From: Tribonema minus
Lineage: Eukaryota; Sar; Xanthophyceae; Tribonematales; Tribonemataceae
Direction: 5' to 3'
DNA: 64,000 nt
Assembly: GCA_017506865.1 (NCBI GenBank)
Contig: JAFCMP010000015.1
Span: 62,001-126,000, forward strand
Of this stretch, positions 9,488-63,930 are shown one piece after another (position 1 is the first letter of the stretch; every line of letters starts with the position of its first letter). A program made the position numbers and the translations under genes. Under the pieces are notes generated by a model. It worked only from the letters and a program-made list of their open reading frames with translations, searched no databases and was not told the origin of the DNA.

Positions 9488-9563
9488 CCCCCTCTCGCAC
9501 TCAGCATGAGTCTTGGCTACTGCACATATCCTGGAGCCCCCTCTGGCTCTGACGTGGCTCACG

Positions 9564-11657: not shown

Positions 11658-11662
11658 GGCCC

Positions 11663-39800: not shown

Positions 39801-42800
39801 CAACTGGGTGCTGCGGGACCTAACGCTCACCGAGTCGAGCTACCCCATGAACCTGGCGGAGACAGCATCTATATTTTTCGAGGTGAGGTCAGCTTGTTGT
39901 CGTCATGAGTTTCAAGCTTATGTTTGGTGACACAGAGGAGCGGGGGGGAGAGTGTTCTTCAAAGTGAGGTTGACAGTCGTCATTGTAAGTGTGGTGACAC
40001 AGAGGACGGGGGCGGGGGAGTCTTATTTGAGGTGAGGCCAGTTTGTTGTCGTCGTGAGTTTGGTGACACAGAGGAGAGGGGTTGGTCTGAATTTCATCAA
40101 GTGCAATTCATCGTGGGGGAGCGTCGCCGACGTGTGATACAAAGGTGTAGCGGCAGCCTCATGCTGCTCGACTCCCTCCGCCCCTGCTGACCCTTTGACC
40201 CCAGGGGGCCGGCCCCTCGCTGCCTACCCCCTTGATTATAGATCACGCTCCTTGCCCCACGCTGTTCAACGCCATGCAGAGGGGCATAGGGTAAGTATCG
40301 TGAGCGTTAGACAGATGGGCCTTTCCAGGCACCTATGGGACGTCCGCACGTCACAGGCACCGCCGCGCGATCAGCTTCACATGGGAGCTTTATCACGTGT
40401 CCGGTGCACTGTTTGTCAGGCTGAACAGCACGTCCTTCAGCTTGCTCAATGTGACAACAGTCGATGACGTTCACGCCAGCGCGGCCTGCGCCAAGGCTCG
40501 CTTGCCGTCGTCACGAGGTCTTCGCGGGGAGGATCCAGCATGCATGTAGTGGGACACTAAAGCGGGGCCAGGCCGCCCCAGTACAACGAATGCACCGACA
40601 CGCATGGCATCGTCGCCATCAGCTGCCGATGCGGATGCTATGAGGCAGGTCGCAGGTCACGGTGGCAGCGTTGATCGCCGCCTTCAGCACGGCGGCCTTG
40701 ATGCAGGCTGTGCCAGTGCCACTTTTTCGGTGTACTGGACGGTTTGCATCCGCTCGAGGTTCACAATTGCCTGCTGGCTCTCCCCAGAGATTCTCTGTGA
40801 TTCTCTGTGAACATCCAGCAAGCCTGCGTAGATGCGGCAGCCCGCGTGTCCTCAGCTGCCGTCACATCAGGCAGGTTGAAGGACGTGCCGTTCAGCTTGA
40901 CAAACGCCCGGTACGCTGTAATGCTTGAGTGGGATATCGATCGCGCGGCGGCGCGTGTGACGTGCGGAAGCCCCATTGGACGTGCCTGGAGGCCCCTCTT
41001 CCTGGCAGTGCAGAACGCAATGTCATGTCATGCGCTGCGAACGACAGTCATCAACGTCCGCTGACTTGCGCACATTCAGTGACCCTCATGACCGCCTCAG
41101 TTAGCTCTCCACCTCCATGCAGACACCTCGACGACTGGAACAGGTTACAATACGATTGCCACACTGCACAAAAGCTCACATTGCGCGCGCTCTCCGCTTG
41201 CTGAGCGTCGCAGACACTAGTGAACGACGTCCTCTTACAGCCGTTTCATCACAATTGGCACACTGTGCAGGCAACTACGCATGCTGCGCGCGCTCTCTAC
41301 TCTACTTGCTGAGCGCTGCAGACAGTGGTGAGCGGCGCCCTGTTAAAGCACTGTCATCACGCTTGGCGCAGGCGCAGATGAAGCTAGTACAGCAGTAAAA
41401 AAAGACTCACGCTGCGCGCGCTCTCTGCTTGCCGAGCGCTGCAGACGGTGGTAAGCGACGCCCTCCTAAAGCAGTCTCATCACGAATTGGCACGCTGCGC
41501 AGGCACTCATGTAGCGCACTCTTTACTTGCTGAGCGCTGCAGACTGTGGTGAGCGAAGTTCAGTATGATTGGCACACAGTGACACTGCGCAGGCACTCAT
41601 GTTGCGCGCGCTGTCTCCTTGCTGAGCGCAGACAGTGGTGAGCGACGCCCTCCTGGCGCGCGCGCGCTCCCCCGCGGAGCGCTTCCGCTGCCTCTGGGGC
41701 GAGGCCGAAAGCGCCGCAGCGTTCCTGCTCAACATCCCCGCGCGGTTCGACTTTGAGAGCGCGCTGTACGAGGTATGTACGTATGGACGTTTCTCGTGCG
41801 CTGTGCTTGAATTTCAATTTTGACCGCTTTTCTCGTGGCACTTTTTACAGCGGGCTGTATGAGGTATGTATGTCTGTTCCTCATCCGCTGTGAAGTCAAA
41901 CATTTGTGACTGCTTCCTCTGGTGGTCGTGTGTGCACCCCGCTGCTGCGGCCTTGCCCTCCAGAGCACTTTGTGCGCTGTGTTCCGTGTGGGGTATGTCA
42001 TGCACAAGCAGGACGCGAGGGCGCGTGGTTGACCGGGGCGGTGCCGCGCAGAGGGCGTCTTCTGCAGCAGCACCCTCCCCGTGCCCTGTCTTGGCGGTTT
42101 CATGCGCTCCGCAGCGTTGTGTGCAGATGCCACAGCGCATCCTGTCGCGCTTAAGTGAGCTCTTATCATCAGGTGGTGATCGTATCAATACAAGCCTGCG
42201 TAGCTTTTCTGTGATCCGTCCGGGCCCTCCCGCCATGCTTGCACGCCCGCGTGGGGCACCACCAGGCATCTTCCGTGAGATTCTCCGTGCGCATTTCGTG
42301 CGCGCGCGAGAACGAACACGCGGAGACGTGCATCCTGCCTCACAAGGCCCCTTCAACGCCCTGCCCGCCACACGGACCCATTGCGCCGCATGATGCCATG
42401 TTCACAATTTTCTGCCCACCGTCCTACCTCAATGCCATACTCCATACCTCTTGCTTGTTCATACGTACTGTTCAGGCACGCTCAGAGGGCCGTGTGCTGG
42501 CCCCGGCAGACCTCAGCAAGATGATGGAAGAAGCATGGGGCGGCCGCTACGGCGACGCCTTATCGCAGCTCGATCCGCTGTTCTGGGCGACCAAACTTCA
42601 CTTCAGCCTGAGCTCAGCGCAGTTCTACAACTGGTAAGCGCAAAACCAACACACGTGCAACTCGCCACGAATCCGAATATGCTGATATCGCAGGGGTTTC
42701 CTCCCAGCCAGCCGCTCTCTCTGTTTTGAGCCGTCAACCATAAGTAAGCCACAGCCGAATGCGATCATTCATTTGGCATCACCAGTAAGAGTCGCGCGGC

Positions 42801-44507
42801 TCTGTCAAGCAGCATGCGTCGAAGGCACATGACACCATTGTGTTGCCGGCAGTAAGCCACAGCCAAATGCAATCATTCGTTTGGCATTACCCAGTAGAAG
42901 TCATCATCATTCGGCATCTGAACGCTTCATATGCACTATTGGCAATTGTGCATCTGGGATTTGTGTTCACTGTATTATGCAAGGCAGTTGCAAGCTGATC
43001 TTATTGACGCGTGCGCTCAACATCCCTTGCAGCCTCACATGCACTCTTTCGCTACACCAAAAGTTATGACATGCAACTGATGAGTCCCTGGAGTCAAAAT
43101 GGCGCCTTGAATATTCGCCATTCAGCCCAGGAAGCAGCGCTCGACAGTACTCCCGCCTCACATTAAGTTTATAAATAAATAGTGATGTGATGGCCACGGC
43201 TTTTTCATTAGCGCACAGAGCCAATATGGTAATGGATCATCACCTTGTTCGCCAGCCTGAGCAGCAGATGGTAGGTGTGCAATGTGAGGCGCCACGCAGC
43301 GCATCAGTGTCTTATGGGACGTGGAAATCGCGCACGCCACCGCCATACACAAGGCTGTGGCACTGTCTCACAGGCTGTGCGAGGCGTGCATGATTGCTGC
43401 TTTGTAATCAAGCGTGAGGTTTGCAGGCTATAGCTATAGTGTCACAGTGTCCACTTTCATGGGGTGCTCTGCCTGATGCAATGTGCAGAATTGTCAGCTT
43501 CGAAGGCACAGCTCAGCCGTATATCTGCCCTCTTGCCTGTGTGCGCTGTCTGCCCCAGGCCGTACAGCTTTGGGTACCTTTTCTCATTAGGGGTCGTCGC
43601 CACACGAGAGTCACAGGTACGCTGTCATGGTTTGAAGTTAAGGTCAAGCAAAATGTTTATCCTGCATTCACTGAATTCAGGCGCATTCACAGCGACTCTA
43701 ACAAAAGTGCTCCTCCATGCCGCAGGGCAGATGATGTTTGCATCCTGTGCCCAATCCACTCTGACTCTCGACCTGCTGCTTTGAAGTCCCGAGGACTGAC
43801 CTGTGTACTGCATGACCCCGTGCAAGTGTGATGGGGCACCTTGTGTGTCGCCTAGCTGTTCTCATCAGTGAAATAAACACCTGCGCAGCTTCAAAGGTCA
43901 CCACAATGTACGCTGCACCTGGAAGGAATTGAAATTTGACATTTGCAATGCAACCGCACTGACGGTCTGACCAAGGCTGCTTGGGAGTGTTTCAGGGCAA
44001 CTCACACCCACATCTGTCAAAGCACCCAGCTATTCAATGTTTCCAGTGCCACTTAAGAACTGCAAAATTGTGAACCTGCCAATGGTGTCCATGTTGTGAC
44101 AGCCAGTGCACCCCATGTCGGATCACATGCACATAATCATGATGCATGCACTTGTGAGATTTTACTGCGTGTTCGCAAACACGCACTGCTCGTGTGATCC
44201 CCGCAGCGTGTGTGTTGCACTAATTAGCAAAAATCAGCAGCGCACACGCCTCTCGGGCGCCCAAGACCAACTCTGTGCTGAGCACTGTGGACCTCCTGTT
44301 GCAAATCGTTTCCCCCCTCAGGGCGACAACTTCCACGCCGCGTACAGCGCTCTGCTGCGCGACACGGGGCGCATGACGGCGGAAGAGCTCGTGCAGAAGC
44401 ACCTCGGCGTGTCTATCGAGGAGCCCGAGTTCTGGCGGGGCAGCATCCGCATCATCGCCGCCAAGATGGACGCGCTGGACGCCGTTATGGATGAGTTGAA
44501 GTTTTGA
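36873..44507 (+). CDS. M3B oligoendopeptidase F-like zinc metallopeptidase, 8 exons
   Basis: Exons 36873-37580, 37842-38210, 38707-38913, 39634-39882, 41632-41772, 42476-42633, 43559-43616 and 44322-44507 join in consistent phase to about 690 residues, close to the family's size plus a leader. The zinc site is HELGHAYH (HEXXH) in exon 4, with ETASIFFE as the third-ligand region. WPYSFGYLFSLGVVA bridges exons 6-7 and is typical of PepF. Family members cleave short peptides. The first 75 residues are Arg/Ser/Ala-rich with few acids (MHLSRRAARTTAAVSLCLLH), suggesting an organelle transit peptide, so plastid or mitochondrial peptide turnover is likely. The real start could lie elsewhere if a 5' intron exists. 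The intron between exons 4 and 5 carries echoes of both flanking exon edges. Confidence 0.9.
38211..38706 (+). other. Intron 2 of the metallopeptidase gene
   Basis: This 496-bp GT-AG intron (GTGTGG donor, CTACAG acceptor) contains no recognisable feature. Intron 3 (38914-39633) contains only a G-rich run at about 38960-38985. Confidence 0.6.
39871..40080 (+). repeat. Donor-side echo array of metallopeptidase exon 4, three units
   Basis: The exon 4 end (ATATTTTTCGAG then GTGAGGTCAG) is followed by two more units (near 39955 and 40021). Each has a degraded exon end (TTCTTCAAA, CTTATTTGAG), a GTGAGG donor, a TTGTTGTCGTC-like stretch and a GTGACACAGAGGA tail. Only the first unit continues the protein. 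Units are about 65-80 bp. Confidence 0.85.
41176..41660 (+). repeat. Acceptor-side echo array of metallopeptidase exon 5, five units
   Basis: Five units of about 90-125 bp each end in GCTGAGCGCTGCAGAC followed by a version of the exon 5 start GTGGTGAGCGACGCCCTCCT. They lie at about 41209, 41318, 41441, 41539 and 41629. Only the last continues into the conserved exon. The others degrade after 10-25 exon bases. GCGCAGGCACTCAT and TCATCACGAATTGGCA words recur between units. Confidence 0.88.
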
Positions 44508-47500
44508 TTGAGGGGCCTTTGAAGTAGCGACAATGCACATACTTGGTGGTTTATTTGTGTGTTGTGGTGTGCAATCGTGTCCACGCGTTGTCAGGCATGC
44601 ACCAATACCATGACTGCTGAGCATCGCTGCATGGCCTTGAGACATTTGAAAAGGGTCATTGAGATGGAACATTGAGATGGAACAGATTTTTGTGGGCTAC
44701 ATCACATTGTGAATGCTTATAAGAAACACACAGAGGGCACGAGCTGGATTGCTAAAGGTAATGAATTTGTAAATAGTAAAAACTTGGCTTTCGGGCGCAG
44801 GAGTGGCGCCCATCTTGGTTGTCATGAAGCCTTGCGATTTTCACCAAGTTCCTGTGGTGTTTTTCAGCCCTGTCTGACCTTTGCCCAGCTTGATGCCCAA
44901 AGGGCATGCAGGCATTGACAGCGCCTTTGTTAAAGCTGCCACACAGAGCGGAATGGAGTTATACTGGTCGCCGTAGTGGATGAGCACAAGTCATTTGAGT
45001 GGTCAGGGCCTTCAGTGTGTGACACATTGTACGTGTCACAGTGCCATCCGTTGTGCTGAGTTTAGGCGTAGATGCAAATAAAGTTGCAGTTGATGTGTAA
45101 CTAACATCAAGTTCAACAAAAAGACACCAAAAGTGCCATTGCAGCATTTAGAAGTAGCCGAACTTTAATCAGGCTTCGTTGCCTGAACAACGTCAAGTCT
45201 TGTTCTGCGTGCGTGCACTCCCCGCCTCAGCACCAAAGCTTCATGAAGCGCTTGACTTTTTTGAAGTCCAGTCCGCGTGCACGATCGCGTGCTTTGCCAC
45301 CAGATCGCAAGAGGTGACGGAGACCTCCACATCACATCTATTCGCCAAGAAAAAGATCATCTTTTTCTCAAAAAGAAAGCTGAACAACTCGTGTGGGCCT
45401 GCTCTTGGAGGTCCCAGCTCCTTTTGACGTGCCCAAGTGGATTAGCGCTTCTTCAGACACTCGAACACATGCAAGAATTGTCTCTCGCACGCCAACGCCA
45501 GCAGCAACAGCCGCATGCTAACCCTTCTGGGCGTGCTCAAGTCTGATTTTGAGAATCTGTACACGAGCAAGATCTATATCCCATCAACAACATGCAGTAT
45601 CATGGCCGTAAAAGGAGGACATCAGCTCTCCTCCACCATGGCGACTGCTTTCCCGTGATTGACATATTGACAGCATGACTCGATGCTGGAGGATCTAGGC
45701 TGGACTGGCTTCCAGAGGCCATTTCACATCAAGGTGGACCGGCGACTAGGCTTTTGCGGCAGCCTGTGACTTGTTGAGCCAGTGTACGAGTCGAGCAGGG
45801 TGCCATAAGAGATCTGCTGGCATGTCTTGAGGCTGTGGAAGCAACCTGCTTTCGAACACACAAAAACGTTACTTTCATCATACATACCCACGCGCCGTGA
45901 CGAGGGTGAGGAGGAGAGCTTGAACTGAGCGAGTACAGAAGCGCACCTGGGAGTAGTCGCAGCAGGGCTAGCAGAGGATTTTGCTGGAGAGTATCTTGTT
46001 GATCTGCCTAGATAAGGTCAGGGGCGATCGAGGTATAGTGGAACAGCTGGCGCAGTTGAACAAGCCGGGCTTTCGATTCTTTGCCCCAACCAAGGACCAG
46101 GAGAGGGATCCCGGCAATTAAGGCGGAGTACGAAGCTGGGGGGAAGGCGAGAGGCTCACACTGGAAAGGCGAGGCGCAGCGGGCCACGATGCTGCCACTG
46201 GAGTTCCCAGGACTGGGGGGACCTTCCGCTCAGAGCTCGCACCCTTCGCTGCCGGGGATGGGCCTGTGGCTTAGCATCGCGGACTCCATGGAGGTGTGTC
46301 TATACTCCATGCACTACAAGTAGTTCATGGCGCTGTCGATATCCGCGTTCCGAGAAGATATTGTGTAAGCTATGGTAATCATGTTTGGACTTGGGAAAGC
46401 AATCAACTCAGACTTTGACAGTGCAGCAGCAGATACCCTGCTCGTGACTTCTGCTGCCGCACAAGATTTACGTGTCAGCCAGCACCTTCATGCATAGTGA
46501 CGGCCGTGGCCAGACGCAGGTCGCTTGCCGCGTCCTAGCACTCATGGGAAGCGCGACCTTCCGTTATCGTCGCGTATCTCGTGGCGTATGACAGGCGATC
46601 CACACTCGTGAAATGTTTGTGGTAGCATATTGTCGGTTTCAATTGCGTCCGCAAGACAAACTGGGATGCTAGAGCGATCACATCCGGTGGCTCTGCCAGA
46701 CGTTGTTGCTTGCACGCTATGCAAACGTCCCGTTGATTACACCCATTCCGCGAAGGTCAACCCCGCAAAGGTCAGGATACGGTTGAGGCAAGAGTATATC
46801 CCTGTCTCCAGGCCACGGCGACTGCCTCTTTCCTGCCACAAATTCATGGTGCACTGCAATGCCCTCCAAAAGTGTGCAGTTGCACTTCAACTTGACAGGA
46901 TGTCAGAGCAGACCTGCAGATGCTGATGCAGCAAGGACTTGAGTGTTGTAAACCCTCGTGTCCTCTATGTGTGTGCGCGTCACACACTCAGTACATTGTG
47001 AAATGTCGACACAGAAAGTGATGCTGGAGGCAGCTGCTTGCGCTGGCTGAAAGCGTTTTGCGATTGCAGCTACGGCACGGGCAGTACCATGACTCATGCG
47101 TTGCCAAGCTTTTGGCAGTACGCCATTGTGCATCGAGACGACCACACACCGCCTTTCTGCCTGGTATCACGCAGTGTTCCGTCGATAGCATTCACGCCCT
47201 GCTGCCGACGCAATGCTTTGCGCACCGATCGTGTGTGTTAGTGGACCATCAGTTATGACAGCAATGGCTCCTGCTGTGTTTGAGCGAGTTTGAGTTGAAC
47301 TTGCGAACCAGGTGGCATCACCCAGCTTGATGCCTTCGCGTGAAAGCCGTGGCAGGTGCCCTAAAGGCAATCAATCGCACTGCGCCGAATTGCTTTAGTG
47401 CAGGCAGACCTGCTAGGCTCGCACAGTGGCTCAGCAAGTGGCTTGCAGTGGGCCAGGCGATTCTGTTTCTGGAAACGTTTGTGCACGCGGTTGCCTGTCC

Positions 47501-47660
47501 TCCAGGCGTGCAAGAAGCGTCAGTACAGCAGCACCGCCCTGGCTGTATGGCATGAAGATCTTGAAGTAGATCTTGGACATCTCGGTGTGCATTGCACTGA
47601 CGGTAAAATGCCACCACCACAACACTGTATTTCTTTGCTCCACTGCTGTCGTGGCAGCTT
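44508..47660. other. Intergenic region, no supported gene
   Basis: Follows the metallopeptidase stop. Several frames of 60-130 codons exist on both strands but none shows motifs or splice-phase support. A stretch near 46050-46110 reads EQLAQLNKPGFRFFAPTKDQ before a stop and may be a gene fragment. An unspliced 5' exon of the PX gene could lie near 47663-47890 (ATG GGT GAC context), but its link was not shown. Confidence 0.35.
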
Positions 47661-48481: not shown

Positions 48482-51400
48482 CGCGTGTGCACGGACAAGG
48501 CGTCCGTCGACAAGCGCGATGCGGGCTGCCTCGACCAGCACTTCAAGACGAGCGCCTTTTTTGACGAGACGTCGTGCCGCCACGATTACAAGCTCGTCGG
48601 CAGCAAGATCTACTCCAGCGGGCGCTTCCAGGAGCAGATGAAGCAGGACGCGGAGGACGCGGCGACGAGCAGGAACGCATCTGGGGGCGGTGAGTCAACT
48701 TCAAATGTTGAGTTACTTCAGGTTTTGAGTCAACTTCAAGTGTTGAGTGAGGTGTGTGGCCACGTGCGCGGGGCGCGGCGGACGGGCAGAGGGAGCCTGC
48801 GTGTATGCCCGCAGAGGTCTGTGATCAGTCCTCGACTGTGTGAATCGAGGTCTGGTAGCGATTGCTCGATGACAAGGCCAGTGGCTGCATTGCGCGAAGT
48901 TGGCGCATGTCGGCGTAGTGTTGGTGCGTCGCGCTGCGGCGCTGCGCCGAGCGGTGCGCACTTTTGAACACTCACCATGCGTGACCACGCACGTCACCAT
49001 TGCTCAGCAGGCCCCAAGTTGAACATGCGCTGACCTGCGCGCTGCAACTTCATGATCTGCGCTGCACGCGCCGGCGCAGGGGCGCTCACGTGCGGTGCAC
49101 AGCGTGTTTCCTCTCAGCTCATCAACGAATTCTCATCAGCCCCTTCTTCCTTGCCTGCGCTGCACACACGTCCCCAGGCTCGCTGGCCTCTCTCAAGTCC
49201 ATGGGTTAGGGTTAGGGTTAGGATTAGGGTTAGGCCCAATCCTAAGGCCTAACCCTAACCCTAACTTCCTGATCTGCGCTGCACGCGCCGGCGCAGGCGC
49301 GCTCACGTGCTATGCCTACCGCATTTGCTCTCGGCTCATTCTCACCAAACCCTACTCACCTGCCTGCGCTGCGCACACACATTCCAGGCTCACTGGCCTC
49401 TCTCAAGTCCATTGGGAGCGGCGGGAGTCTCGGCAAGCGGCGAGGCGACAGCACGCTCAGCGTCAACAGCGAGAGCGATCCGTGGGGGTGGTTCGAAGAC
49501 CCGGAGACGGATGCGCACGGGGGCGGCAGCGCTCAGGGTCAGTGTTGTTGAACTCAGAGTTGAGGTTTCAAAGTTCAGATCGATTTGTGGGGGTGATTTG
49601 AGGACCCGAAGACGGACGCGCACGGCGGCGGCAGCGCTCAGGGTGAGTATTGTTGAACTCAGAGTTGAGGTTTCAAAGTTCAGATCCGTGCGTGGGGGTG
49701 CTTGGAGGACCCGGAGACGGACGCGCACGGGGGCGGCAGCGCTCAGGGTGAGTGTTCTTGTTGAAGTCAAAATGAAGTTTTGAAGTTCAAATCGATGCGT
49801 GGGGGTGATTTGAGGACCCGGAGACAGACGCGCACGGCGGCGGCAGCGCTCAGGGTGAGTACTGTTGGACTCAGAGTTGAGGTTTCAAAGTTCAGATCCG
49901 TGCGTGGGGGTGCTTTGAGGACCCGGAGACGGACGCGCACGGGGGTGGCAGCGCTCAGGGTGAGTGTTCTTGTTGAAGTCAAAATGAAGTTTCGAAGTTC
50001 AAATTGATGCGTGGGGGTGATTTGAGGACCCGGAGACGGACGCGCACAGCGGCGGCAGCGCTCAGGGTGAGGAATGTTGGACTCAGAGTTGAGGTTTCAA
50101 AGTTCAGATCCGTGCGTGGGGGTGCTTTGAGGACCCGGAGACGGACGCGCACGGGGGCGGCAGCGCGCAGCGTGAGAGTTGTTCAAGTTGTACTTGAGGT
50201 TCCAAAGCTCACATCGATGCGCGAGGGTGGTTTGAGGACCCGGAGACGGATGCGCATGGGGGTGGCGGCGCGCAGGGTGAGCTTTCTTGAGGTCAGAGTT
50301 GAGGTCTCAAAGTTCAAATCAATGCGTGGGGGTGGTTTGACGACCTGGAGACAAACGCGCACGGGGGCGGCAGCGGGAGCGCTGTTGTTGAAGTCAGAAT
50401 TGAGGTTTCAAAGTGCAACTTTAATTAACCGCAGAAAGAAAAAGGACGCGCATGGGGGCAGCGCACAGGGTGAGCATCGTTGAAGTCAAGGTTGAGGTTT
50501 TAAGTTGGGCTTCAATGAAACGCAGACAGAAAAAAGGTTGCGGGTGAGCATGCGTGTGCTCCATCAAGGTGAGCGCTGAAGTGAGGGGAGATCCCACCGT
50601 TGAAGTCAGAGTTGAGGTTTGAAGATTCACCTCAATGAACTGCAGCAAGAAAACAGGTGAGGTAGTGCAAAGCGTGCTCCATGCGCGGTGAGCATTGGAA
50701 TGAGGGAGAATCCAATCCGCAGGTTCAATGAGCACCAGCGATGCAGAGCACGCGCGCGAAGAATGCACATGCGTGTTCTGTGGGCTCGTTGCCGAGCAGT
50801 TGGAAGCACGCGCAGAGGTGAGGCATCTCGTGCGCGTCTGACGCTCTCAGCGCGAGGCACAGTGGTCCAGCAAGTCGAAACCTCGTTTGCTTTACTGCCC
50901 AAAAATTGGTCATTCTTGAGCTCTACAACATACATAAGCTGGCATTACCTGGTGATGAGGCGCCCGCCGGCTGTCAATGCTGTGCAGACTGGCGCGCGTT
51001 GTTGCCCGTGCGAGTCCTCAGGTTGTCCGAGCGCGTCATGGCAGGCACACATGGAGAACAACGCACTTCCATGGCGCCAACGCTGCGGTCATCAGCGCAC
51101 CGCAGTCCTGGAGGCATCGGCTCAGGTGCTCATGGGACAGCGCCGCCTCTCAACGACCGCATACTCTCCGATGCAGACCTCCTGCAATACATGTATGCGC
51201 TCACAACTGCATAGTTTCCGATGCAGACCTCCTGCAATACATGTATGCGCCTCTCAACGACCGCATACTTTCAGACCTCCTGCAATACACCTATGCGCTC
51301 ACGCAGAGTCTCAGCGCCCAGTGGCTGTAGCACACAAAACGGATGCGTGCACCTGCCATTCGCACGCAGCTCACCGCTGTCCACGCGCCATGATGGCCCG

Positions 51401-54400
51401 CCCACAGGCTGCACAGACACGCAGCACGTGACGGCTCCCGGTGGCGGGACGCCGGTGAAGGAAACGCCGATTTACGTGCTCACTGAGAGCCTCATTGCTC
51501 AACGGCCGTAGCACACACGACAGATGTGTGCACCTGCCATTTGCACACAGCTGACCGCTGTCAATGCGCTGACGATGGGCCCGCCCGCAGGCTGCGCGGA
51601 CACGCAGCACGCATCGGCACCTCGCACCAAGACCCTGCTCAATGAACACCTGTGATACATGTACGCGCTCACGCAGAGTCTCAGCGCCCAGCGGCTGCGG
51701 CGCCCAATGGGTATGTGCTGCTGCCATGAACGCGCTGACAACGGTGCGCTTTGTCCGGCTCACAGGCTGCGCGGACACGCAGCACGAAACGGCGCCCGGC
51801 GGAGGGACGCCGGTGAAGGAAACGCCGATTTATGTGCTCACTGAGAGCCTCAGTGCTCAGCGGCTGTGGCACCAGACGGCGGGGCGGCGGCCGCGGCAGC
51901 CGTCGCAGGAGCGCACGTACTTTGAGCAGGTCTGGGAGAAGAACTTTGGCGAGAGCGAGGTGAGGCAATGTTGAAATTTGAGTGATAAAGTTGAAGTTTG
52001 GGTGGTGAATGTTGAAGTTTGAGTGCGGGCGCGCCCCGAAGATGCAATCACACGCAACCAACACTGACGTGCAAAGTTTGAGAGAGGGGCGGGCGCTGGA
52101 CATTGAGTCGCAGGACCGAACGCGGTGTTGGTGTGCATGCAATACAATGGAGCTGTGTGCCTACAGTATGTAGCTCATTGCAGACCGCTGGCTCCAGTCA
52201 CGCTTACAACTGCGGTGCGATGGTGGTGCGCGCTGCCGCTATTATGCGATGAGCAACTACGAGTGCCAGCCGTGGTAGCGCGGGTTAGGGTTAGGGTTAG
52301 GGTTAGTGCGGAGTCAATTTACTTTAATGAATTTTCCAACATGTATTGAAGTAGTTTCATTTCCAGTTGACATAAACTCTGTCATTTCTTCCGAGTGGGG
52401 TGTCCTGCATGCGGTGCTCTCATACTAGGCTCTGCTGCGCGCTGGTGGTGGTGGTGATAGACTGCGCTTCATTGGCGGCGCCATTGCGCTTCGCTGGTGA
52501 TCCCATGAGAGAGCTGCAATCGCCACATGCCAGACTACTTGTACAGATGCAGCGAGCGTGCCAGGGCCATCCCTTTCGCGCGGTATCTCCATTCTTCTGC
52601 ATCGTTGTGCCTGAAATCGCTCCTCTTTTCAAGCAGTCGTCGCTCGCGAACGACTCTGTGATTTTTCCTCGCAAATTTGAGCGATGCAAACGCTACGTCT
52701 CAGCATAATGACACAGACGTAGCGAGCGTGCCAGCTCCATCGCTATCGCGCGGTTTCTCCACTCTACTGCGTCGTTGTTTGTGCTGCAGGTTCTTGCGTC
52801 AACTCGGGCTGTTTCTCGCGCTCATTTTCAAACGCTTAGCACTGCGCAGAGACAGCGGTGATGGCGACGACAGTGATAACTTTTGACGCTGGACACCAAT
52901 CGCAAACCGGCCAACGTGTTCCTAATTTCACACAGACAGGCTATGACTTTGCTTAGCAGCGCGCACTCGGCAGTGCATGGTACACGACAATAGCTTCTCC
53001 CCGTTTGTGAAGGCACCTTTCAGCTGAAATGAGCACAAGTCACCACCAACAGCACGCGCTGTGCAGCCCTCTGGCAGGCTGACTGATCACGAGTACATCT
53101 ATGGAATTGCTTAAGACGGCTTTGATCGACTCCGCCTGCGTCAAAAGCTGCAGCAGCTCAAAGTGGCGCGCGCTCCGATGTGTTTTTGCGAGAATAAAAA
53201 CAGAAAAAGTGGAGTTGGGAACTATGAACCGAATAGTAGACTACTGCAGTAGGTTCATGCGGGCTGGCTCTGGCATTCGTGCACGTGCAAGACGTAAACT
53301 GCAAGTTGGCTTGAGCTTTATGACAAAGTGCCTATCACCAGCGCTGTTCCACCCTTGTTTCAACGGCGCTGCCTCCGCGTCATCAGGACATGGAACACCC
53401 GCCTGCGTGCTGCCGACCCCTTGCAGCTGCCGTGTGTCCGCGCGTCATGCAGCTCGCTCTGAGTTCCTACGACGGTCGATTTGCTGCCTTGCGATGATGC
53501 GCAGGTGGACTACACGAAGCCGCTGCCGTCCGACCGGCGCAGCAGCCGCAAGGGGGCACGCCCCCCGACGCGCGTGCTGTACCGCGCTACCAGCCCCTTT
53601 GGCTCTGCGGTGAGACGTGCGATGACGCTTCGTCAGAGAACATGACTTGCAATGACTGCTTGCAGCGCCAGCAAACGCACAGGAAACGTATAATAAAAGG
53701 TTCCACGGTTCAACTTTGTCGTCAAACTTCAGTTGAGTAGACAAGCGGTGAGGCGCGCATTGTACGCAGCACATGCATGCAGTAACTGCTTTTCAGCGCC
53801 AGCGAATGCCTGGGAAAAGGTCATAAAAGTTCAACTTGGTAGTCAAACTTCAATTTTCTGTAGACATGCAGTGAGGCACGCGTTGGACGCAACACATGGC
53901 ATGCAACGACTGCTGTTGCGGCGGCAGCAAAGGCCCAGGAGCGCTGCTTGTGGAAACTATGCAGCGCCTTGTACGCGACAAGCGCTTGCAGCGCCCGCCA
54001 ACCCTCAGGAATGCTGCACTTGAAATCCACTCACGAGACTCCGGGCCACCAGCTGTTTTGGCGCGGCGATACTGCGCGCATGTGCTCATATGCATACCAA
54101 AAGCATGAGGGAGATGCCGCACGGCCATGTCGTTGAGCGTGCTTGAGCACCTGTGCGATGTCACGGCGAGGCGTCATCGCGAGGCGTCATCGCCTGGCAG
54201 CATGGATGCGTTAACACTTATGTCATCATGTTGGCTTCTTTGCGCCTTCGGCGGTAATCAGTCAACAGTCCATTGCACATGAAAGCACTGCGTGGCGATA
54301 CTTGAAGCCACCCACCGCTCCGGCTCGGCGACAATGCAATTGCCCGCATACGTCAATGTGTCCTAAAGCATTTTCACGTGTCAACGATCATGTCTTCCTA

Positions 54401-56041
54401 GGATTACAGCAAGAAATTTGGGATATGACCAGGACTAGGGCCAGGGTAAGGGCTAACGCACAGCATACCGTGTGGTGGTACAGTCGCACACTCAAGCACG
54501 ATGTGCAGACCTTCCATGCTGACGTACACAGCAAGTCTCTGAGACAAGTGGTGCGCTCGCGGAACTTAGCAGCACCTTCATCAACCCGTTTCGCTCGCCG
54601 GTCTCAGCCCCTGCTGTCGTTTATGTGAGCGAGCCCGAGTCGTTTGAACCTCGTGTCAATGCTCTACACGGACCGAACCTCGAGATCACTCTCCAGCTGA
54701 GCTCCTGCCTTTGAAGCTCACCATGTGACTCTCCCCGCCGCTGCGCGCAGGTGAGCAAGTCGTTCAAGTGCGAGAACTGCGGCGAGATCTCCTCCATCAT
54801 GGTCCACATACCCAAGTTTCAGATCGTGCAGTCGGGGAGCGACGTGCACGCCGAGTACCTCATCGTCGTGGGGCTGGGCGCCGTCACGCTAGGTACGTAT
54901 GTATACCGCTGTGCACAGCACTCATCATGCTGCTACTTCAAATTTGAAGTATGACTTGGAGAAGTTATGTCGGGCAGCGACGTGCACGCCGAGTACTCCT
55001 CGTCGTGGGGCTGGGCGCCGTCACACTAGGTATGTATGCCTGCTGCAGTGCACAGTGCTCATCGCCATGCTCCGTCTGGGAAGAGATTTGCGGGCATGTT
55101 TGCAGATAGTGCAGGCCGGGAGCAGCATACTTGTCCCCACAGGCGGGGCACGAATGCTCTGAATCCACTCTTGTGCTGGGGACTGATCAGCTGGAAATGC
55201 AGCACAATGTGACTGCACCTCTTGGTGGTGATGCGCACTTCGGCAAACCAGACAGCCGGTGCACAGTGACCTGAGGCGTTGAATGGCAGGCAGCGCTCGC
55301 TCAGCACGGTGGTGCCAGCCGTAGCTCACATTCACACACCAGTTATGCCATGTGAGCGCAGGCAGCGGCACGCCGTGAATTGCTTCAGCTTCAGACCAAG
55401 CATCGGCGCACGCAATGACTGCATGGGGAGCACGACTGACGGCTGAACGATCGCGTTGTGTGTGGAATGTTGATCATCGAACACAAACTTCAAGTTTGAT
55501 GTTGTCTAACTGCCTGTGTGTGCTCTGCGTGCGCCCCCCGCAGGCGTCTGGCGGAGGTTCCGCGAGTTCAAGAACCTTGCTAATAAGCTCGAGGGCAGCA
55601 ACAAGCGCCAGCAGTTCCACAACGCGCTGTGCTCGTGGCACTGCTTGCGCGCACGCCAGCGGCTGTTCCGCTGCCTGGACAAGGACTACTTAATCCTGAA
55701 ATGGTGAGTGCACACAGTCGTGAACAGACGGCTGCCAGCATGGCAGTTGTCTACTGAAATTTTTGTGTATCATTGCCTTGTTGATAAGCCAGCGCTTTGA
55801 CAGCCGCAGAAGCATCGCGGTTGCGTCGGCTGCCGTTTTTTTCGGATCATTCTGTGATGCCCCACAACAAGCAGATGTCTCCATGAGCATCGCCTTATAC
55901 CCCCTCTCTCTGCCTGCCGTGCCCCTTGCCGTTTCCTGCTGCGTGCCCCCCCTGCAGCTTCCTGCTTGAACGCTTTCTACACGACCTGGTCTTTGAAAGC
56001 ATGAGCCCTGACACGGTGCGGGAATTTTTGGGAGTGCTATA
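48482..56041 (+). CDS. PX-domain (phox homology) protein, at least 7 exons
   Basis: Exons 48482-48689, 49388-49537, 51766-51959, 53505-53609, 54751-54891, 55545-55703 and 55959-56041 (TAG) mostly agree in phase (1/1, 1/1, 0/0 at the first three joins). A small exon may lie near 54560-54625. Exon 1 reads GCLDQHFKTSAFFDETSCRH, exon 2 ends in GWFEDPETDAHGGGSAQ, and exon 3 has TPVKETPIYVLTESLSAQRL. Exons 5-7 form the PX domain: IPKFQIVQSGSDVHAEYLIV, WRRFREFKNLANKLEG, RLFRCLDKDYLILKC and FLLERFLHDLVFESM. PX domains bind phosphoinositides, usually PtdIns3P, so a role in endosomal membrane traffic is inferred. The N-terminal start was not found. Introns 1-3 and 5 contain partial copies of flanking exons. 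Confidence 0.82.
49046..49425 (+). repeat. Duplicated acceptor end of PX-gene intron 1 and exon 2
   Basis: 49046-49202 and 49267-49425 share TGATCTGCGCTGCACGCGCC, a similar pyrimidine tract, and CCAG followed by the exon start GCTCGCTGGCCTCTCTC / GCTCACTGGCCTCTCTC. The first copy keeps only about ten codons (SLASLKSMG) before telomere-like repeats. The second continues as the real exon 2. Confidence 0.85.
49203..49262. repeat. Head-to-head interstitial telomeric repeat
   Basis: (TTAGGG)n runs inward for about 30 bp, followed by a short spacer (CCCAATCCTAAGG) and then (CCCTAA)n, forming a near-palindrome. It lies exactly between the truncated exon copy and the start of the second intron copy. 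It is not a chromosome end, since unique sequence flanks both sides. Confidence 0.92.
49484..50400 (+). repeat. Tandem array of PX exon 2 end plus donor, about 9 units of 106 bp
   Basis: The exon 2 end (TTCGAAGACCCGGAGACGG ... GGCAGCGCTCAG) with its GTNAGT donor recurs at about 49602, 49708, 49815, 49918, 50026, 50131, 50238 and 50344. Spacers of about 41-48 bp contain GAGTTGAGGTTTCAAAGTTC plus AG, so each unit looks like a tiny intron plus an exon copy. In the exon frame, units alternate between TGA and TGC/TGG at the Trp position of GWFEDPETD. The array therefore probably grew as doubled units of about 212 bp. A different frame stays open throughout and is judged an artefact. Confidence 0.9.
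51118..51330 (+). repeat. Intronic tandem repeat (CAGACCTCCTGCAATACA units)
   Basis: Three units of about 60-70 bp contain TCAACGACCGCATACT and CAGACCTCCTGCAATACA. They lead into GCTCACGCAGAGTCTCAGCG, which recurs again at about 51665. They lie in the intron upstream of PX exon 3 and merge with its echo copies. Confidence 0.8.
51402..51880 (+). repeat. Acceptor-side echo copies of PX-gene exon 3
   Basis: The exon 3 start (CAG, GCTGCGCGGACACGCAGCAC, then GGGACGCCGGTGAAGGAAAC) occurs in a long copy at about 51405-51515, a short copy at about 51588-51625, and the working exon from 51766. The long copy keeps TPVKETPIYVLTESL and then loses the frame. The working copy alone continues to the GTGAGG donor at 51960. 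Confidence 0.88.
52283..52308 (+). repeat. Short interstitial telomeric repeat in a PX-gene intron
   Basis: Four TTAGGG-type units in a row lie within the intron 51960-53504. One-strand orientation only. The remainder of this 1.5-kb intron holds nothing I can assign. Confidence 0.9.
54815..55032 (+). repeat. Donor-side echo of PX-gene exon 5
   Basis: The exon end GGGAGCGACGTGCACGCCGAG ... GGGCTGGGCGCCGTCACG with its CTAG/GTACGTATG donor is repeated at 54967-55030 with a GTATGTATG donor. The copy has lost a few bases mid-way, shifting its frame. The duplicated segment is about 60 exon bases plus about 40 intron bases. Confidence 0.9.
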
Positions 56042-58118: not shown

Positions 58119-58172
58119 ATGGTCCATGGTCACATGGTCCATGGTCACATGGTCCACATGGTCACATGGTCC
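58119..58172. repeat. Short minisatellite, CATGGTC-based
   Basis: About four tandem 15-bp units of ATGGTCCATGGTCAC type with small length changes. No function was seen. Confidence 0.85.
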
Positions 58173-58587
58173 GTCAATGACTCGTCGGTTGCCTTCGAAT
58201 GCAGAGTGCTCCTCGATGCCTCAAAGTCGAACGCGGTGGGCGCCTTCTGTGCAGTCCAAATTTGCGTCGTTGGTGTATCTGCTACCCGGTCCATGCAATT
58301 GCCTTGACATTCCTTAAGTGAACTGCACTGTCAAGTGGCTGCCCAGTGGTTGGTAGCGGCAACATGTTGCAACCAGCTTCCACTGTGTAGATGCATATGG
58401 CCAAATGGTGACTCTCCTTTTTGAAGTTCACCTGCCAGCGAAAATTGCGCAAGAAGAAGGTGGTGCCTTACGTAAGTGGTCGCCCACGGTGCTGCCCGGA
58501 GCTAGATTGGAGCGCTGAGGCTGCCAAGGAGGAGTCTAGGGCCTTTTACAGCCATCGTGACGCCCTCATCGGGAGGGAGCGGGTGCC

Positions 58588-58782
58588 ATGAATTTTGAAG
58601 TTCTGTTGGGCTTTTGTTTGACATCGTTTGGTTTCTCTGGCGTGTGTTTCCTGGTGCGATGGCTGCTGCTCAAAGACTCCCAATCCAGCAAGGCGAGCCG
58701 GGCGGCTGAGTACGTGGGAGGAGTCGAAGTAGCAGGCAAGTCTTGTGAAGTATCGCACAAAAATATTGCATGGGGACCATGA
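58588..58782 (+). CDS. Small ORF with a predicted membrane helix
   Basis: Starts MNFEVLLGFCLTSFGFSGVC and continues hydrophobically (FLVRWLLLKD) before a polar tail, 64 codons in all. The context before the ATG is GTGCCATGA. There are no homologues I recognise and no splice support. It could be a chance frame. Confidence 0.2.
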   Translation: MNFEVLLGFCLTSFGFSGVCFLVRWLLLKDSQSSKASRAAEYVGGVEVAGKSCEVSHKNIAWGP

Positions 58783-60044
58783 TTGCCGCTTACATGAAGC
58801 TGTCTGTGCAGCCGGCCTCTGCTTTGACATCACCATGCTCATTTACTGGCTTTTCAACAGCAGCTACTGAAGAGCTCACGATGAACACAAGAAGCTGATG
58901 ATCACCTGAAGTCGGTGGAAATCTGTCGGGCACCTCCAGTGCGCACCCATTTGGTTCGCCAACGCTCGATGGATGCTGATCTTAATCTTATGGGTGCAGC
59001 GGCTTTCGCAGGCTCAGCAGCCGGTGTCACTGTGATGCAGGTCGCAGGGTTCCTATGGTTCTAAATCACGATGACGCGCAAAAACTTCGACTGCGCATTC
59101 CGCCGTCTGCCGTCGCGAGTTCTGGGCGTGCCTTCGCAGCTGCAATGCATTGCGTACGCAGGCAGGCCGCTCAATGCAGCCGTCGCCGCCAGCGCACTCA
59201 GCACACACCGCACTGGTCTTGATTTGGCTCCAGCCTTCATGTTTTGTTGACTACATAATGGCCGTTATATATAGTTCCGCTGCGGCGCCGCAGCAGCGCG
59301 CAGCCCACAAGCCCGTCCTCACGCGTCTGGCATCCAGTGACGCAGCCGCAGAGCGGCGCGGCCTGAATGCGCAGGGCACCGTGCGTGCGCGCGGTGGCGG
59401 TAGCATGCGAGCCCTGGCTGCAACTGAACACTTGAAGCGCCGTCTGCGCGACAAACCGCTGCACCAGCATTGAACGATTTGATCCAGCTGTTCATTGCGC
59501 TGAGCAGCGGCGGTGAGACGCGACGCGCGCCGCTGTGCTGAGCGCGCCCAAGAGTTGGGGTCAGAGTCAGGAGTGCGGATGTCGTGTTTTCCTTGAATTG
59601 AAAGTGTGGCAGAAGCTTTACGGCACAGCTGTTGCTCCAGCACACACATGAGCCCCCGGGTGGCATGCAGGATGGCCGCAGAAAAGGCGACCGCCATGAA
59701 TTGCTATACGTGCCAGCACTCTTATACGCACAGGCGTGTGACGGCATGCCATACGACCTGACGTTTACGGCTCCGCGCGTGGCTGTAGCACTCTGCTGCG
59801 CCAGGCCAACGGGCACCATGCAAAACCTTATTACGGCCTCGCATGCTACCGTGAGCTCGACTGCGCAAGCGGTGCGATGGCGTCAGCACCGCCTGCGCTG
59901 TTGCGCCCTGCCGGCGCTTACACAATCGCCATCTCCACCCTATTCCTCATCACACGGCCCCCCCTCCGCGACCTTAATTTTAACTACATCCACAACTTCA
60001 ACAACATCCACAACTTCAACATGATGCTCCCTGCCCCCGCGCAG

Positions 60045-63000
60045 GCTGGGCGCTCGCCTGGTACGGCATCAGCGTCACCTTCACCATCGTGAACCGCTAC
60101 GTCCTCTCCGTCTGGAACGGCGGGTTCCCGTACCCCATCCTCATGACGGCGTGCCACATGGCCGTCAAGTTTGCGCTCTCGCGCGCGGCGTTCGCGGCGT
60201 GCTGCTGCTGCGGCGGCGCAGGCGCGCGGCTGCGGCGGCGCGCGCCGGAGCCGCTGGAGCGGCGCCTGTACTGGCGCACCGCCGCGCCGATAGGGCTGCT
60301 CACGGCGGCGGACGTGCTCATGTCCAACGCGTCGCTCATGTTCATCACGGTGACGTTCTACACGATTGCCAAGGTGAGAGGCGCGCGCCGCTGGCGTTGA
60401 TGCTCGGCTCTGGTGCTATCGACGGGGGCACTCTTTCTTGATCCCGCGTGCTGCGTTGAGCGCTGCTGCGGGCAGCGGACGTGCTCGTGTCCAATGCGTT
60501 GCTCATGATCATTACGGAGACGTTGTGCACGATCGCCAAGGTGAGGGGGGGGCGCGCGCCGCTGCCGCTGGTTCTGAGCGCTGGTGCGTGTCGTGGGCAG
60601 CGCCGCGGTCGCTTTTTCCACTGCTACAATGGGCGACATTTCTGCACAGCCATCTCAGAGGCTGACGTTGTTGTTGCAGCGCTGGTCATGAATGATCGAG
60701 GTCATGAATGATCGTGGTCGAGTGCGTCACGTACTGTGACCACAGCTGCCTTCCACGCCCGACGCCGAGGCGGCATGGTGTGGCAGCGCTCGTCTTGCTG
60801 GGGCAGTGCTTAACGCCATCCGCCGCGATGCCGTGCAGCGCGCCTGTCGACCGGCAGCGTTTGGCTTCACACGGGCAGCGGCAGTCGCTGCGTGTGCGAC
60901 CACCACTCCCCCCCTCTCTCCTCCCCTCACACGTGCCCCATGCGGCTTCGCCACCGTAACTGCCGTACCGTCAAGCGTGCAAATTGGCAAATGAGCGTGC
61001 AACTGCCATGTGCTCCAACACTCGCAGACGGGGCCGCTCATGTGGACGCTGGCGCTGAAGCCCGCGCGCTGGGTGGCAGCGCTCAGCACTCACCCATCAA
61101 CACACTCATCACCCTCTCTCCCTCGTGTATCCCCCCTCCACGGCCTCATTACGCATACGTACAGACGGGGACGCTCATGTGGACGCTGCTGTGGGCGGGG
61201 GTGCTGCGGCTGGAGCCGGCGCGATGGGTGACAGCGCTCATCAAAACCTTCAACATCGCCGTCTGCAGTGCGGTCCGTGAAGGGTGATCACCACCCCTCT
61301 CGCCCTCATGTATCCCCCTCCCTCCGCGGCCTCGTTGCAGACGGGAACGCTCATGTGGACGCTGCTATGGGCGGTGGTGCTGCGGCTGGAGCCGGCGCGA
61401 TGGGTGACAGCGCTCATCATCAGCGTCATCACCGCGGGACTCGCCATGGCGTCGTGGGGGGAGATCGACTTCAGCCTGCCGGGGCTGCTGCTGGTCATGG
61501 GGGCGGGGTGCGCGGGGGGCTTGAGGTGTGTACGCATGCATATTGCACCTTAACTTCAAGTTCAGCTCTCTCAGGTTGCCTTCTGATCCTAGGGGTCATG
61601 TTCGTATGGAGATGCACGTGTGCCTGGAAGTATATACATACATGTAACTTTGATGCATGAAGTAATGCGAGCGCATTATGGCCAAACATGTAGGAGGTTG
61701 TCACAGGGGTATGTACTGGGGTACGCTGATGTTTACAATACTGTTGGCTTTGAACAGCATGGCGGATGCTCAAAAGGTTAGCCACGCGAACCCATGGTCG
61801 CTTTGGTGAACATGGGCAGGGGACCCAATGCAAAGCTCCTCCAGCTGCGGAGCGCGTGGCGAAGAAGTTGGTCATAGTCGAACTAACAGTTGAAGTCTCT
61901 TCCAGTTGAAGTGACACGGGCTTGCACGGTATGAATGTATGTACTTTGAAGTGTGTGTAAACATTGAAGTATGACACAACTGCATTGTCTCACACGAGAT
62001 CTCTGCCTTCCTGTCGATCATCCTCCACAGCTGGGCGCTGACGCAGCTGCCGCAGCAGGCCGACCCCACGTGCAGGGACCCTTTGTAATCTTAACCCTAA
62101 CCCTAGCCCTAACCTCAAACCCCAAGGTAACATTTTGCTGTATATTGCTGTTGTCTGTCAGGTGGGCGCTGACGCAGCTGCTGCAGCAAACGGACCCTTC
62201 GTGCAAAGACCCTAACCTTAACTCCTAACTCTTACCCCAATTTGTCCCTAAGGTTAACAATATATGATTCATTGCTGCTGCTTGTCTCAGGTGGGCGCTG
62301 ACGCAGCTGCTGCAGCAGGCGGACCCCGCGTGCAAGGACCCGCTGGTGGTGGTCTACCACGTCGCGGGCGCGAGCCTGGCCGGCATGCTGCCCTTCGTGC
62401 TGATCGACGCCATCCCGTGGGCACAAAGGCAAGGCCGCACGCGCGCACTGCTGCCTTGAACTTCAACTTTGCAGTGCGCGCTGCGGCGCGGTGTGCGTCA
62501 CCGGCGATGCGCGCAGCTTCAACTCTGCGCAGTGGCTTGCGTCTAGGAGTGGAGGTGCCGCAGAAAGTCTTTCGCGCTTGCGTGCGTGTGTGCTCGGTCG
62601 GTGCAGTGCCGTTCTCAAGCAGTGCGCGCACTCGCCCGGAATGGGTTTGCGCGTCTGCTCGGAGAGCTTGATTTTAGGGGTAACAATTAGGGGGTTCGGG
62701 TTAGGGGTAGGTTGCCCACCGCTTTGATCCATTCGTCGCCGCTGGGCTGGCGAGCATGGCGAGAAGCGGCGCACATGCATCGTTGACTCCGATCGTCGTT
62801 GCTAGCCGGACACGGTGAGAGACGGCTCGCATGCGTGTGCCCTCTCCTCACAAATGTGGCCATAAATTAGGATGAGGGTTAGCAGTGCCTGTCAACGATT
62901 TAAGGTGCCTCGGCGGCTCTCCCTTGGCGTGTTTGCCACCACCACGGTGGTTTGGCGGCGGGGGCACCGGTGTCGGTTTTGGCCCTCACGATGGTGCGCG

Positions 63001-63930
63001 CTTGGTGCTGCGCTGTATCAAAATTTGTGATATGTCGGCGCTGTCGCCGCCGCCGCCGGCGTTGCCGAGGCACACGGAAGCGCGCGTCGTTCTTTCCACG
63101 CTCCGTCGCCACGAGAGTCAGTGCTGACGATTCCTGGTCCATGTGATTGCAACAGCAACCCCTACATCTGGCGTGCCTGACCCTCGCCCATGGCCGCACA
63201 GCAAGTTTAGCGATGCTCCAACAGGCCGTCGCCGCGCAACGGGGATCCCTAACCCTAGCCCTGATTCAGTCATGCAAGCACTCGATCCTACCCCCCGCTA
63301 CGCGTCGTCCCCGCGCAGCAAGTTCTGCGACGCGCCGGCGCTGCTGCTGCTGCCCGCGGGCAGTGTTGTTGCGGGTGGCTGCGTGCTTTCGCGCACTCGC
63401 TCGGTCTGCTGACATGCCGACAATTCAGGTCCACAAACACGCCAAAACGATCTCCCCGACCTCAACGTGTGCCCCCTTCGCGCCCACCCCCTGCTACGCT
63501 TTGCGCCCCCGCGCAGCAAGTTCTGCGACAGCCCAGCGCTGCTGCTGCAGACGGCGGGCATCGTCGCGGCGGGCGGCTGCGTGGCCTTCGCGCTCGTGGC
63601 GACAGAAATTCACCTCGTCAAGATCACCTCCAGCCTCACCCTCGGCGTGCTCGGCCAGCTCAAGGAGATCGTGCAGATAGGCATCGCGATGGTCGCGTTC
63701 GGCGACGCCATGACAGCGCTCAACGCCGCGGGACTCGCGCTCGCGCTGAGCGGCACGTGGCTGTACAAGCGGTCGCGCAGGGGGGTGGCGGGGGGTGGCG
63801 GCGGGGGGGGGGGCGGCGGGGGCGGGGGGAGGGGGGGGGGGGGGGGGGGCGGGGGGGGGGGGCGCCACGCGATCCGCGGTACGCCATGGTGGATCAGGAG
63901 GACCTGCACATGGAGGTGGGTACTGCCATG
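60045..63930 (+). CDS. SLC35C2-like nucleotide-sugar/TPT transporter, partial gene
   Basis: Exons 60045-60373, 61341-61525, 62291-62428 and 63517 to about 63900 join in consistent phase (0/0, 2/2, 2/2). The protein shows TPT/drug-metabolite-transporter features: WYGISVTFTIVNRYVLSVWN, FPYPILMTACHM, LFDVL-like TM segments (ADVLMSNASLMFITVTFYTI), LMWTLLWAVVLRLEPARW, WALTQLLQQADPACKDPLVV (compare RWTLTQ..LQK in SLC35C2) and SSLTLGVLGQLKEIVQIGIA near the end. It probably exchanges nucleotide sugars or phosphorylated sugars across Golgi or plastid membranes. Substrate cannot be read from sequence. The 5' exon is not identified. A poly-G tract obscures the frame near the C-terminus, and MVDQEDLHME before a GTGGGT donor suggests the gene continues past the window. 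Exons 2 to 4 are each preceded by echo copies. Confidence 0.85.
60286..60560 (+). repeat. Donor-side echo of transporter exon 1
   Basis: The exon end (GCGGACGTGCTCATGTCCAA ... ACGATTGCCAAG, GTGAGA) recurs at about 60466-60560 with substitutions and its own GTGAGG donor. The copy would read ADVLVSNALLMIITETLCTI, which is still open, so an alternative exon is possible. Confidence 0.9.
61022..61430 (+). repeat. Acceptor-side echo array of transporter exon 2, three units
   Basis: CAGACGGGGACGCTCATGTGG-type exon starts occur at about 61022, 61165 and 61339. The first copy keeps TGPLMWTLALKPARWVAAL, the second TGTLMWTLLWAGVLRLEPAR, and only the third runs through to the GTGTGT donor at 61526. Units include CATCACC...CTCTC...GTATCCCCCTCC intron ends, so intron and exon were duplicated together. 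Confidence 0.92.
62028..62340 (+). repeat. Acceptor-side echo array of transporter exon 3, three units
   Basis: TGGGCGCTGACGCAGCTGC-type exon starts occur at about 62031, 62161 and 62292. The first two copies stop after about 18 codons at GACCC and run directly into telomere-like CCTAACC sequence. The third continues as the real exon. Confidence 0.92.
62085..62112. repeat. Telomere-like repeat after truncated exon copy
   Basis: CTTAACCCTAACCCTAGCC-type sequence begins a few bases after the first exon-3 echo stops. A weaker version (CCCTAACCTTAACTCCTAAC) follows the second echo at about 62208-62235. Confidence 0.85.
63190..63600 (+). repeat. Acceptor-side echo array of transporter exon 4, three units
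   Basis: GCAGCAAGTTCTGCGAC-type exon starts lie at about 63315 and 63513. A weaker, shorter one (CAGCAAGTTTAGCGATGC) lies at about 63199. The middle copy keeps KFCDAPALLLLPAGSVVAGG and then diverges at CTTTCGCGCAC. The third is the working exon. A telomere-like CCCTAACCCTAGCC lies between the first and second copies (about 63248). Confidence 0.88.
63780..63863 (+). repeat. G-rich homopolymer tract inside the last visible exon
   Basis: About 80 bases are almost entirely G with scattered C, coding for polyglycine. The exact length decides which frame follows (an APRDPRYAMVDQED-like tail fits one frame). Such tracts are error-prone in sequencing and can form G-quadruplexes. Confidence 0.9.

Follow-up and report, generated by a model that had tools for sequence, protein, structure and literature searches.

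Serial copies of splice junctions within introns of Tribonema minus: a case for tolerated local tandem duplication

How does an intron come to hold repeated, fading copies of the edges of its own flanking exons? The question is raised by a 64,000-nucleotide (nt) stretch of the genome of Tribonema minus (Xanthophyceae; assembly GCA_017506865.1, contig JAFCMP010000015.1, positions 62,001 to 126,000; hereafter, the window). A first-pass annotation of the window described introns in which the end of the upstream exon and its donor site recur after the real donor (donor echoes), or in which the acceptor site and the start of the downstream exon recur before the real acceptor (acceptor echoes). Of the junctions that we inspected, approximately one in four has such fading copies in the neighbouring intron. 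Short local tandem duplications, tolerated at junctions, probably lengthen introns in this genome through serial copying of exon edges.

Junction copies in the window and across the sampled genome

In the window, each junction (70 nt of exon plus 50 nt of intron) was aligned to its own intron, and a copy was accepted if its score exceeded the maximum reached in 60 dinucleotide shuffles. The alignments confirmed the intron coordinates given in the first-pass annotation, and all seven introns named there carry junction copies above the shuffled controls (7/7), of the kinds described. Both kinds are present in introns 39883–41631 (one donor and four acceptor copies, plus a weaker donor copy seen by eye below the shuffle threshold), 49538–51765 (at least eight donor and two acceptor copies) and 60374–61340 (one donor and two acceptor copies). 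Only acceptor copies pass in introns 48691–49387 (one), 61528–62290 (two) and 62434–63516 (one), and intron 54892–55544 has one donor copy and no acceptor copy that passes. The proposed gene names fared less evenly: the metallopeptidase belongs to family M3, with a PF01432 match over the cut-off (E 6.3e-9), the transporter resembles TPT proteins with matches under the Pfam cut-off (E 7.8e-6 and 1.2e-5), and the 'PX protein' had no Pfam match on the 111-amino-acid piece searched.

The wider sample consisted of the window and approximately 286 kb of other DNA from the same genome (one assembly of 158 Mb in 554 contigs), or approximately 350 kb in total from several contigs, with a GC content of 55–62 per cent in the stretches read. 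Gene models came from a simple self-trained gene finder run on approximately 336 kb, to which two window genes were added by hand. A first training run was discarded because it had been captured by giant CAG arrays, and simple arrays were masked afterwards. Recognizable proteins among the models include histidyl-tRNA synthetase, a UvrD-type helicase, the M3 peptidase and two chaperonin genes (the latter by profile). We left out 24 predicted exons that resemble a neighbouring exon, a minus-strand gene that proved false and, within the window, all minus-strand exons; omitting introns shorter than 120 or longer than 6000 nt reduced their number from 175 to 162.

Donor echoes occur in 44 of these 162 introns and acceptor echoes in 39, compared to 6/1296 and 11/1296, respectively, when length-matched foreign DNA was swapped in for the intron. 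The echoes are direct: inverted copies were found for 0/162 donors and 3/162 acceptors. At least one kind is present in 66 introns, and 17 have both kinds (10.6 expected; P-value = 0.013), an expectation that rises to 12.5 when restricted to the 115 introns of at least 500 nt. The echoes are not special to the window but are present across the sampled stretches: after omission of the 13 introns in the three genes of the first-pass annotation, donor arrays remain in 40/149 introns and acceptor arrays in 33/149.

Searches with chaperonin, kinesin, HSP70 and aldehyde dehydrogenase profiles, which are independent of any gene model, agree with the claim that serial junction copies occur in unrelated genes. 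Partial copies lie beside whole exons in four cases among 56 chaperonin/TCP1 matches (tables read by eye; an ambiguous overlapping pair on C279 excluded) and in two among 132 kinesin matches (part of the candidates scored). None was found among 80 HSP70 or 14 aldehyde dehydrogenase matches. In the kinesin, HSP70 and aldehyde dehydrogenase searches part of the candidates was scored, and short copies would escape. In all six profile-found copies, either an upstream copy matches the exon start or a downstream copy matches the exon end. Among same-strand self-matches in five stretches, 404/514 are offset by 50–1000 nt, with arrays counted several times.

Table 1. Window positions of the exons, introns and echoes discussed in the text.
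Feature	Position	Strand	Remarks
M3 metallopeptidase exon end	39637..39882	+	Real donor at 39883; PF01432 E 6.3e-9
Intron of the M3 gene, echoes of both kinds	39883..41631	+	Shuffle-tested alignment
Donor echo (exon tail and donor), M3 intron	40011..40061	+	79% identity; score 31.5 vs shuffle maximum 21
Acceptor echo, M3 intron	41161..41234	+	Score 40 vs shuffle 23.5
Acceptor echo, M3 intron	41260..41341	+	Score 48.5 vs shuffle 23.5
Acceptor echo, M3 intron	41405..41467	+	Score 43 vs shuffle 23.5
Acceptor echo, M3 intron	41492..41556	+	Score 43 vs shuffle 23.5
Acceptor echo of junction 49387/49388	49129..49205	+	Score 49.5 vs shuffle 22.5
Second gene's intron, at least eight donor and two acceptor echoes	49538..51765	+	Shuffle-tested alignment
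Donor echo array	49588..50417	+	Period ~105 nt, higher-order period 212 nt; 82-92% to exon edge
Acceptor echo, intron 49538-51765	51348..51477	+	Score 69.5 vs shuffle 24
Acceptor echo, intron 49538-51765	51529..51662	+	Score 42 vs shuffle 24
Donor echo of junction 54891/54892	54969..55071	+	Score 73 vs shuffle 20.5
TPT-like transporter exon	60047..60373	+	Real donor at 60374; PF03151 E 7.8e-6, below cut-off
Donor echo, intron 60374-61340	60471..60593	+	80% identity; score 74.5 vs shuffle 26.5
Acceptor echo, chiefly exon part, intron 60374-61340	61024..61079	+	68% identity; score 32 vs shuffle 27.5
Acceptor echo of junction 61340/61341	61112..61234	+	Score 88 vs shuffle 27.5
Acceptor echo, nearly exon part alone, intron 61528-62290	62028..62081	+	91%; score 44 vs shuffle 18.5
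Acceptor echo of junction 62290/62291	62120..62212	+	Score 56.5 vs shuffle 18.5
Acceptor echo of junction 63516/63517	63282..63385	+	Score 64.5 vs shuffle 31

Geometry and decay of the copies

Of the donor copies, 90/100 are located in the intron's 5' half, and of the acceptor copies 73/75 in its 3' half, with one to eight copies per donor array and one to four per acceptor array. Spacing between copies is 80–220 nt in 156/175 instances (median 155 nt), and only two fall at 220–260 nt; the 175 spacings and the 75 acceptor positions include one false acceptor array (C1 21777), in which masked N aligned with N. With flanks cut at 150 nt, the exon part of the copies reaches a median of 58 nt into the exon for donors and 69 nt for acceptors. 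When 60-nt seeds were used to look for copies in introns of at least 500 nt, donor-side seeds were echoed in 2/72 cases at 90–150 nt inside the exon, 8/90 at 50–110 nt, 37/109 at the junction and 26/111 at 300 nt into the intron; the acceptor-side values, in the same order, are 5/71, 11/94, 37/110 and 22/112. The copy rate thus drops steeply beyond approximately 60 nt into the exon. Intron seeds may match echo copies as well, and their rate is therefore not an independent rate of duplication. Many near pairs have gaps of 50–500 nt between their aligned parts, for which decay and indels may account.

Divergence from the exon is 5–30 per cent for most copies (range 0–31 per cent over the matched part). 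After removal of duplicate rows (189 to 180), the 167/180 echoes with a known frame were pooled, and their mismatches to the exon at codon positions 1, 2 and 3 amount to 0.114, 0.112 and 0.205, respectively. Echo indels are not a multiple of three in 123/140 cases. Such values are expected where the exon is under constraint and varies largely at silent positions, with a copy that evolves neutrally. Coding constraint on the echoes themselves, suspected from one array (C1 30270), was not borne out by the pooled mismatches. The position-3 excess stems from four sets of models: C100, C1, T135 and the plus strand of the window.

Splice dinucleotides and divergence were compared after dropping echoes that score below 22, which left 162 echoes, 140 of them aligned across the junction. 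The dinucleotide is retained in 63/77 donor echoes (62 of them GT) and 53/63 acceptor echoes. These values are near the neutral expectation of 0.79, obtained as (1 − 0.113) squared, and the decoy sites are therefore neither kept nor purged detectably. In pooled bins, divergence is approximately 0.15 for the exon part of the copies and 0.23 for the intron part at 6–30 nt from the junction, a step that fits decay in one lineage on the exon side versus two on the intron side. The idea that exon parts alone are copied is largely accounted for by this step, with some pairs that stay odd.

The arrays are also serial. The echo nearest to the exon resembles it more closely than the farthest one (0.900 vs 0.848; P-value = 2e-5), a trend seen in 18/21 longer arrays. 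Echoes share position-1/2 differences from the exon above chance (0.028 vs 0.003), and copies have therefore also been made from copies.

Several other repeats were recorded. Within the M3 intron, an inverted repeat (74 per cent) pairs window positions ~40313–40468 with ~40848–40999. TTAGGG-type telomere-like arrays at 49203–49234 and 52282–52306 are intronic by the gene models used. A 92-nt unit repeated 2.1 times at 18322–18517 contains TTGCCTGCAG, which is acceptor-like in appearance. The direct repeats at ~8963–9492 and ~11133–11662 lie 2170 nt apart and share 97–99 per cent identity where they match; they resemble a long terminal repeat pair or may be a recent duplication. Giant CAG/CTG trinucleotide arrays occupy C15:1-8347, where the contig ends (~8.3 kb), and C15:55367-61516 (~6.1 kb, stopping ~480 nt before window position 1).

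Probable tolerance and possible direction of duplication at junctions

Short local tandem duplication fits the array geometry, and we consider the following course of events likely. Duplications with units mostly of 80–220 nt (median 155 nt) would arise often inside genes, and a unit that straddles an exon–intron junction would place an extra exon edge and splice site inside the intron. Splicing probably proceeds by exon recognition, with the exon-nearest site chosen, so that the outermost site (the first donor or the last acceptor) would stay in use; we infer this use from the reading frames of the window genes and from exon constraint. Since the exon-nearest site would remain in use, such a copy would be harmless; with the protein unchanged, it would be tolerated and decay as neutral DNA. 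Later rounds, starting from the junction and from existing echoes, would build serial arrays inward from each junction, with a longer intron as the probable net result. Duplications internal to exons would be removed by selection, and copies would therefore appear to cling to junctions. The unit size invites the conjecture of nucleosome- or Okazaki-scale events.

Whether junctions are also a target was examined by counting duplicate families. A junction is straddled by 88/144 families (61 per cent) overall and by 27/35 (77 per cent) between confidently coding exons, with shares that differ by gene model (0/3, 1/9 and 1/5 up to 14/16). Another 56 to 61 families lie wholly inside introns, and duplication is therefore not confined to the borders. 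Because exon copies stay detectable for longer, blind duplication had to be simulated as a control, in which units and decay resembled the real ones and the search was identical (two to three replicates each). The simulated straddling share is 28–39 per cent for blind duplication, 38–44 per cent for blind duplication with high turnover, 53–64 per cent with a threefold junction bias and 67–71 per cent with a fivefold one. When exons were masked, the observed share is 54/120, and simulated shares are 0.21–0.33 (blind), 0.33–0.39 (high turnover) and 0.46–0.50 (threefold). Against the 0.39 of high-turnover blind duplication, the masked excess is not significant for all introns (P-value = 0.19) but is for the confident subset (19/30; P-value = 0.008). 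In a rotation test, 66/138 families touch an exon edge (43.2 expected; maximum of 58 in 400 rotations), and the number of junctions hit is not significantly raised (72 vs 62.5). A flat profile of near-duplicate coverage around junctions was set aside in favour of the family counts, as it mixes source junctions with their copies.

These counts bear on the reading that duplication is directed to exon edges, three to five times more than inside introns, for instance through nucleosome phasing of exons, replication units of Okazaki size or a polymerase that pauses at splice sites. We regard it as possible, if somewhat doubtful. It is favoured by the raw straddling shares, including 39/55 in four models outside the window that each contain a homology-supported gene (picked after the counts were seen), by their position among the simulated biases, by a spacing that ends near 220 nt, a nucleosome-like scale, and by acceptor-side coverage that, in introns of at least 600 nt, declines from approximately 0.3 near the junction to 0.11 at 550–600 nt. 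It is disfavoured by the masked comparison over all introns, by the number of junctions hit in the rotation test and by donor-side coverage that is flat away from the junction. GC content is not supported as a cause: it is no higher at junctions that have donor echoes (0.580 vs 0.623). In addition, errors of the gene finder enter the counts, and the tests assume that families are independent. The first-pass annotation had proposed that duplication is targeted to, or tolerated at, junctions, to be checked by comparing junctions with other intron positions. On the approximately 350-kb sample, tolerance is well supported by the neutral decay, the intact decoy dinucleotides and the copy rate that falls past approximately 60 nt into the exon; targeting is suggested by the raw family excess over blind duplication and is not borne out, over all introns, by the masked comparison with high turnover, which is free of the detection bias. 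A real junction bias of roughly threefold is possible and fits best, although it is unproven. More tentatively still, duplication on the scale of nucleosomes or Okazaki fragments may favour exon edges in this lineage. Borders would then keep copying themselves inward, a large share of intron length would be a neutral fossil record left by former exon edges, and splicing would ignore many intact decoys.

Other origins of the echoes have much lower probability. Functional alternative or regulatory exon ends under selection could be supposed from the many copies that the gene finder called as exons and from the GT or AG that most retain; such a role is very unlikely given equal pooled mismatch at positions 1 and 2, mostly frame-breaking indels, dinucleotides lost at approximately the neutral rate and, by eye, a TGA that lies in frame in three or more copies of the 49538 array. 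It is likewise very unlikely that the echoes are remains of introns that themselves arose when an exonic AGGT segment was duplicated in tandem, although passages of PMC3443670 present tandem genomic duplication as an accepted route of intron gain. Such a birth predicts a copy of the upstream exon tail at the acceptor and of the downstream exon head at the donor, and 0/175 copies lie within 25 nt of these positions. An assembly or collapse artefact is scarcely credible, because most copies are 5–30 per cent diverged; they are also codon-structured in the pooled data and come from several separate contigs.

Several observations nonetheless weigh against tolerated local duplication as set out above. 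A purely blind process yields fewer straddling families (28–44 per cent) than observed, and blind duplication with tolerance does not predict the lower near-duplicate coverage of predicted intergenic DNA (8.4 per cent, vs 23.0 per cent in introns; five stretches). In several strong pairs the exon part persists with little of the intron part, a state that calls for large indels or for unit edges that vary. The position-3 excess is slight or lacking in the models for the minus strand of C15 (79, 80 and 87 mismatches at positions 1, 2 and 3), C60 (23, 30 and 30) and C2 (21, 25 and 30), and either frames or exons there are doubtful or the neutral reading fails. The self-trained gene models contain errors, and outermost-site use and exon definition enter the scheme as inferences.

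Tolerated duplication of junctions would be a concrete, countable mode of intron growth. Introns with several intact donor or acceptor copies are natural experiments on the choice of the exon-adjacent splice site, and neutral echoes offer a means of dating synonymous change in their source exon. If duplication does prefer junctions, much intron length would record past exon edges.

Comparison with known systems

In literature searches confined to open-licence papers, no listed title or abstract opening was recognizable as a description of serial junction copies in introns. Patch-mediated duplication in plants often yields short, direct tandem duplications of unique DNA and in this respect resembles the process proposed here; we know of no junction bias or serial arrays in that system. 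Introner elements expand intron sequence genome-wide in algae as dispersed copies, whereas the echoes are local: a genome-wide search with one intron, that of the M3 gene, returned three matches, all within itself (very common words skipped).

The closest precedent is in green algae. According to passages of PMC3887541, tandem repeats in Chlamydomonas and Volvox are densest in introns and significantly commoner there near intron–exon junctions, a likeness to the arrays described here; these passages report neither units that hold an exon edge and its splice site, nor the neutral decay of such units, nor serial arrays at the two ends of an intron. Intron gain by tandem genomic duplication, as presented in PMC3443670 and PMC4974935, likewise duplicates a segment that bears splice-site sequence and leaves the mRNA unchanged. 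That process, whose diagnostic geometry was seen in 0/175 copies, makes a new intron from an exonic segment, whereas in Tribonema minus existing introns appear to have been lengthened.

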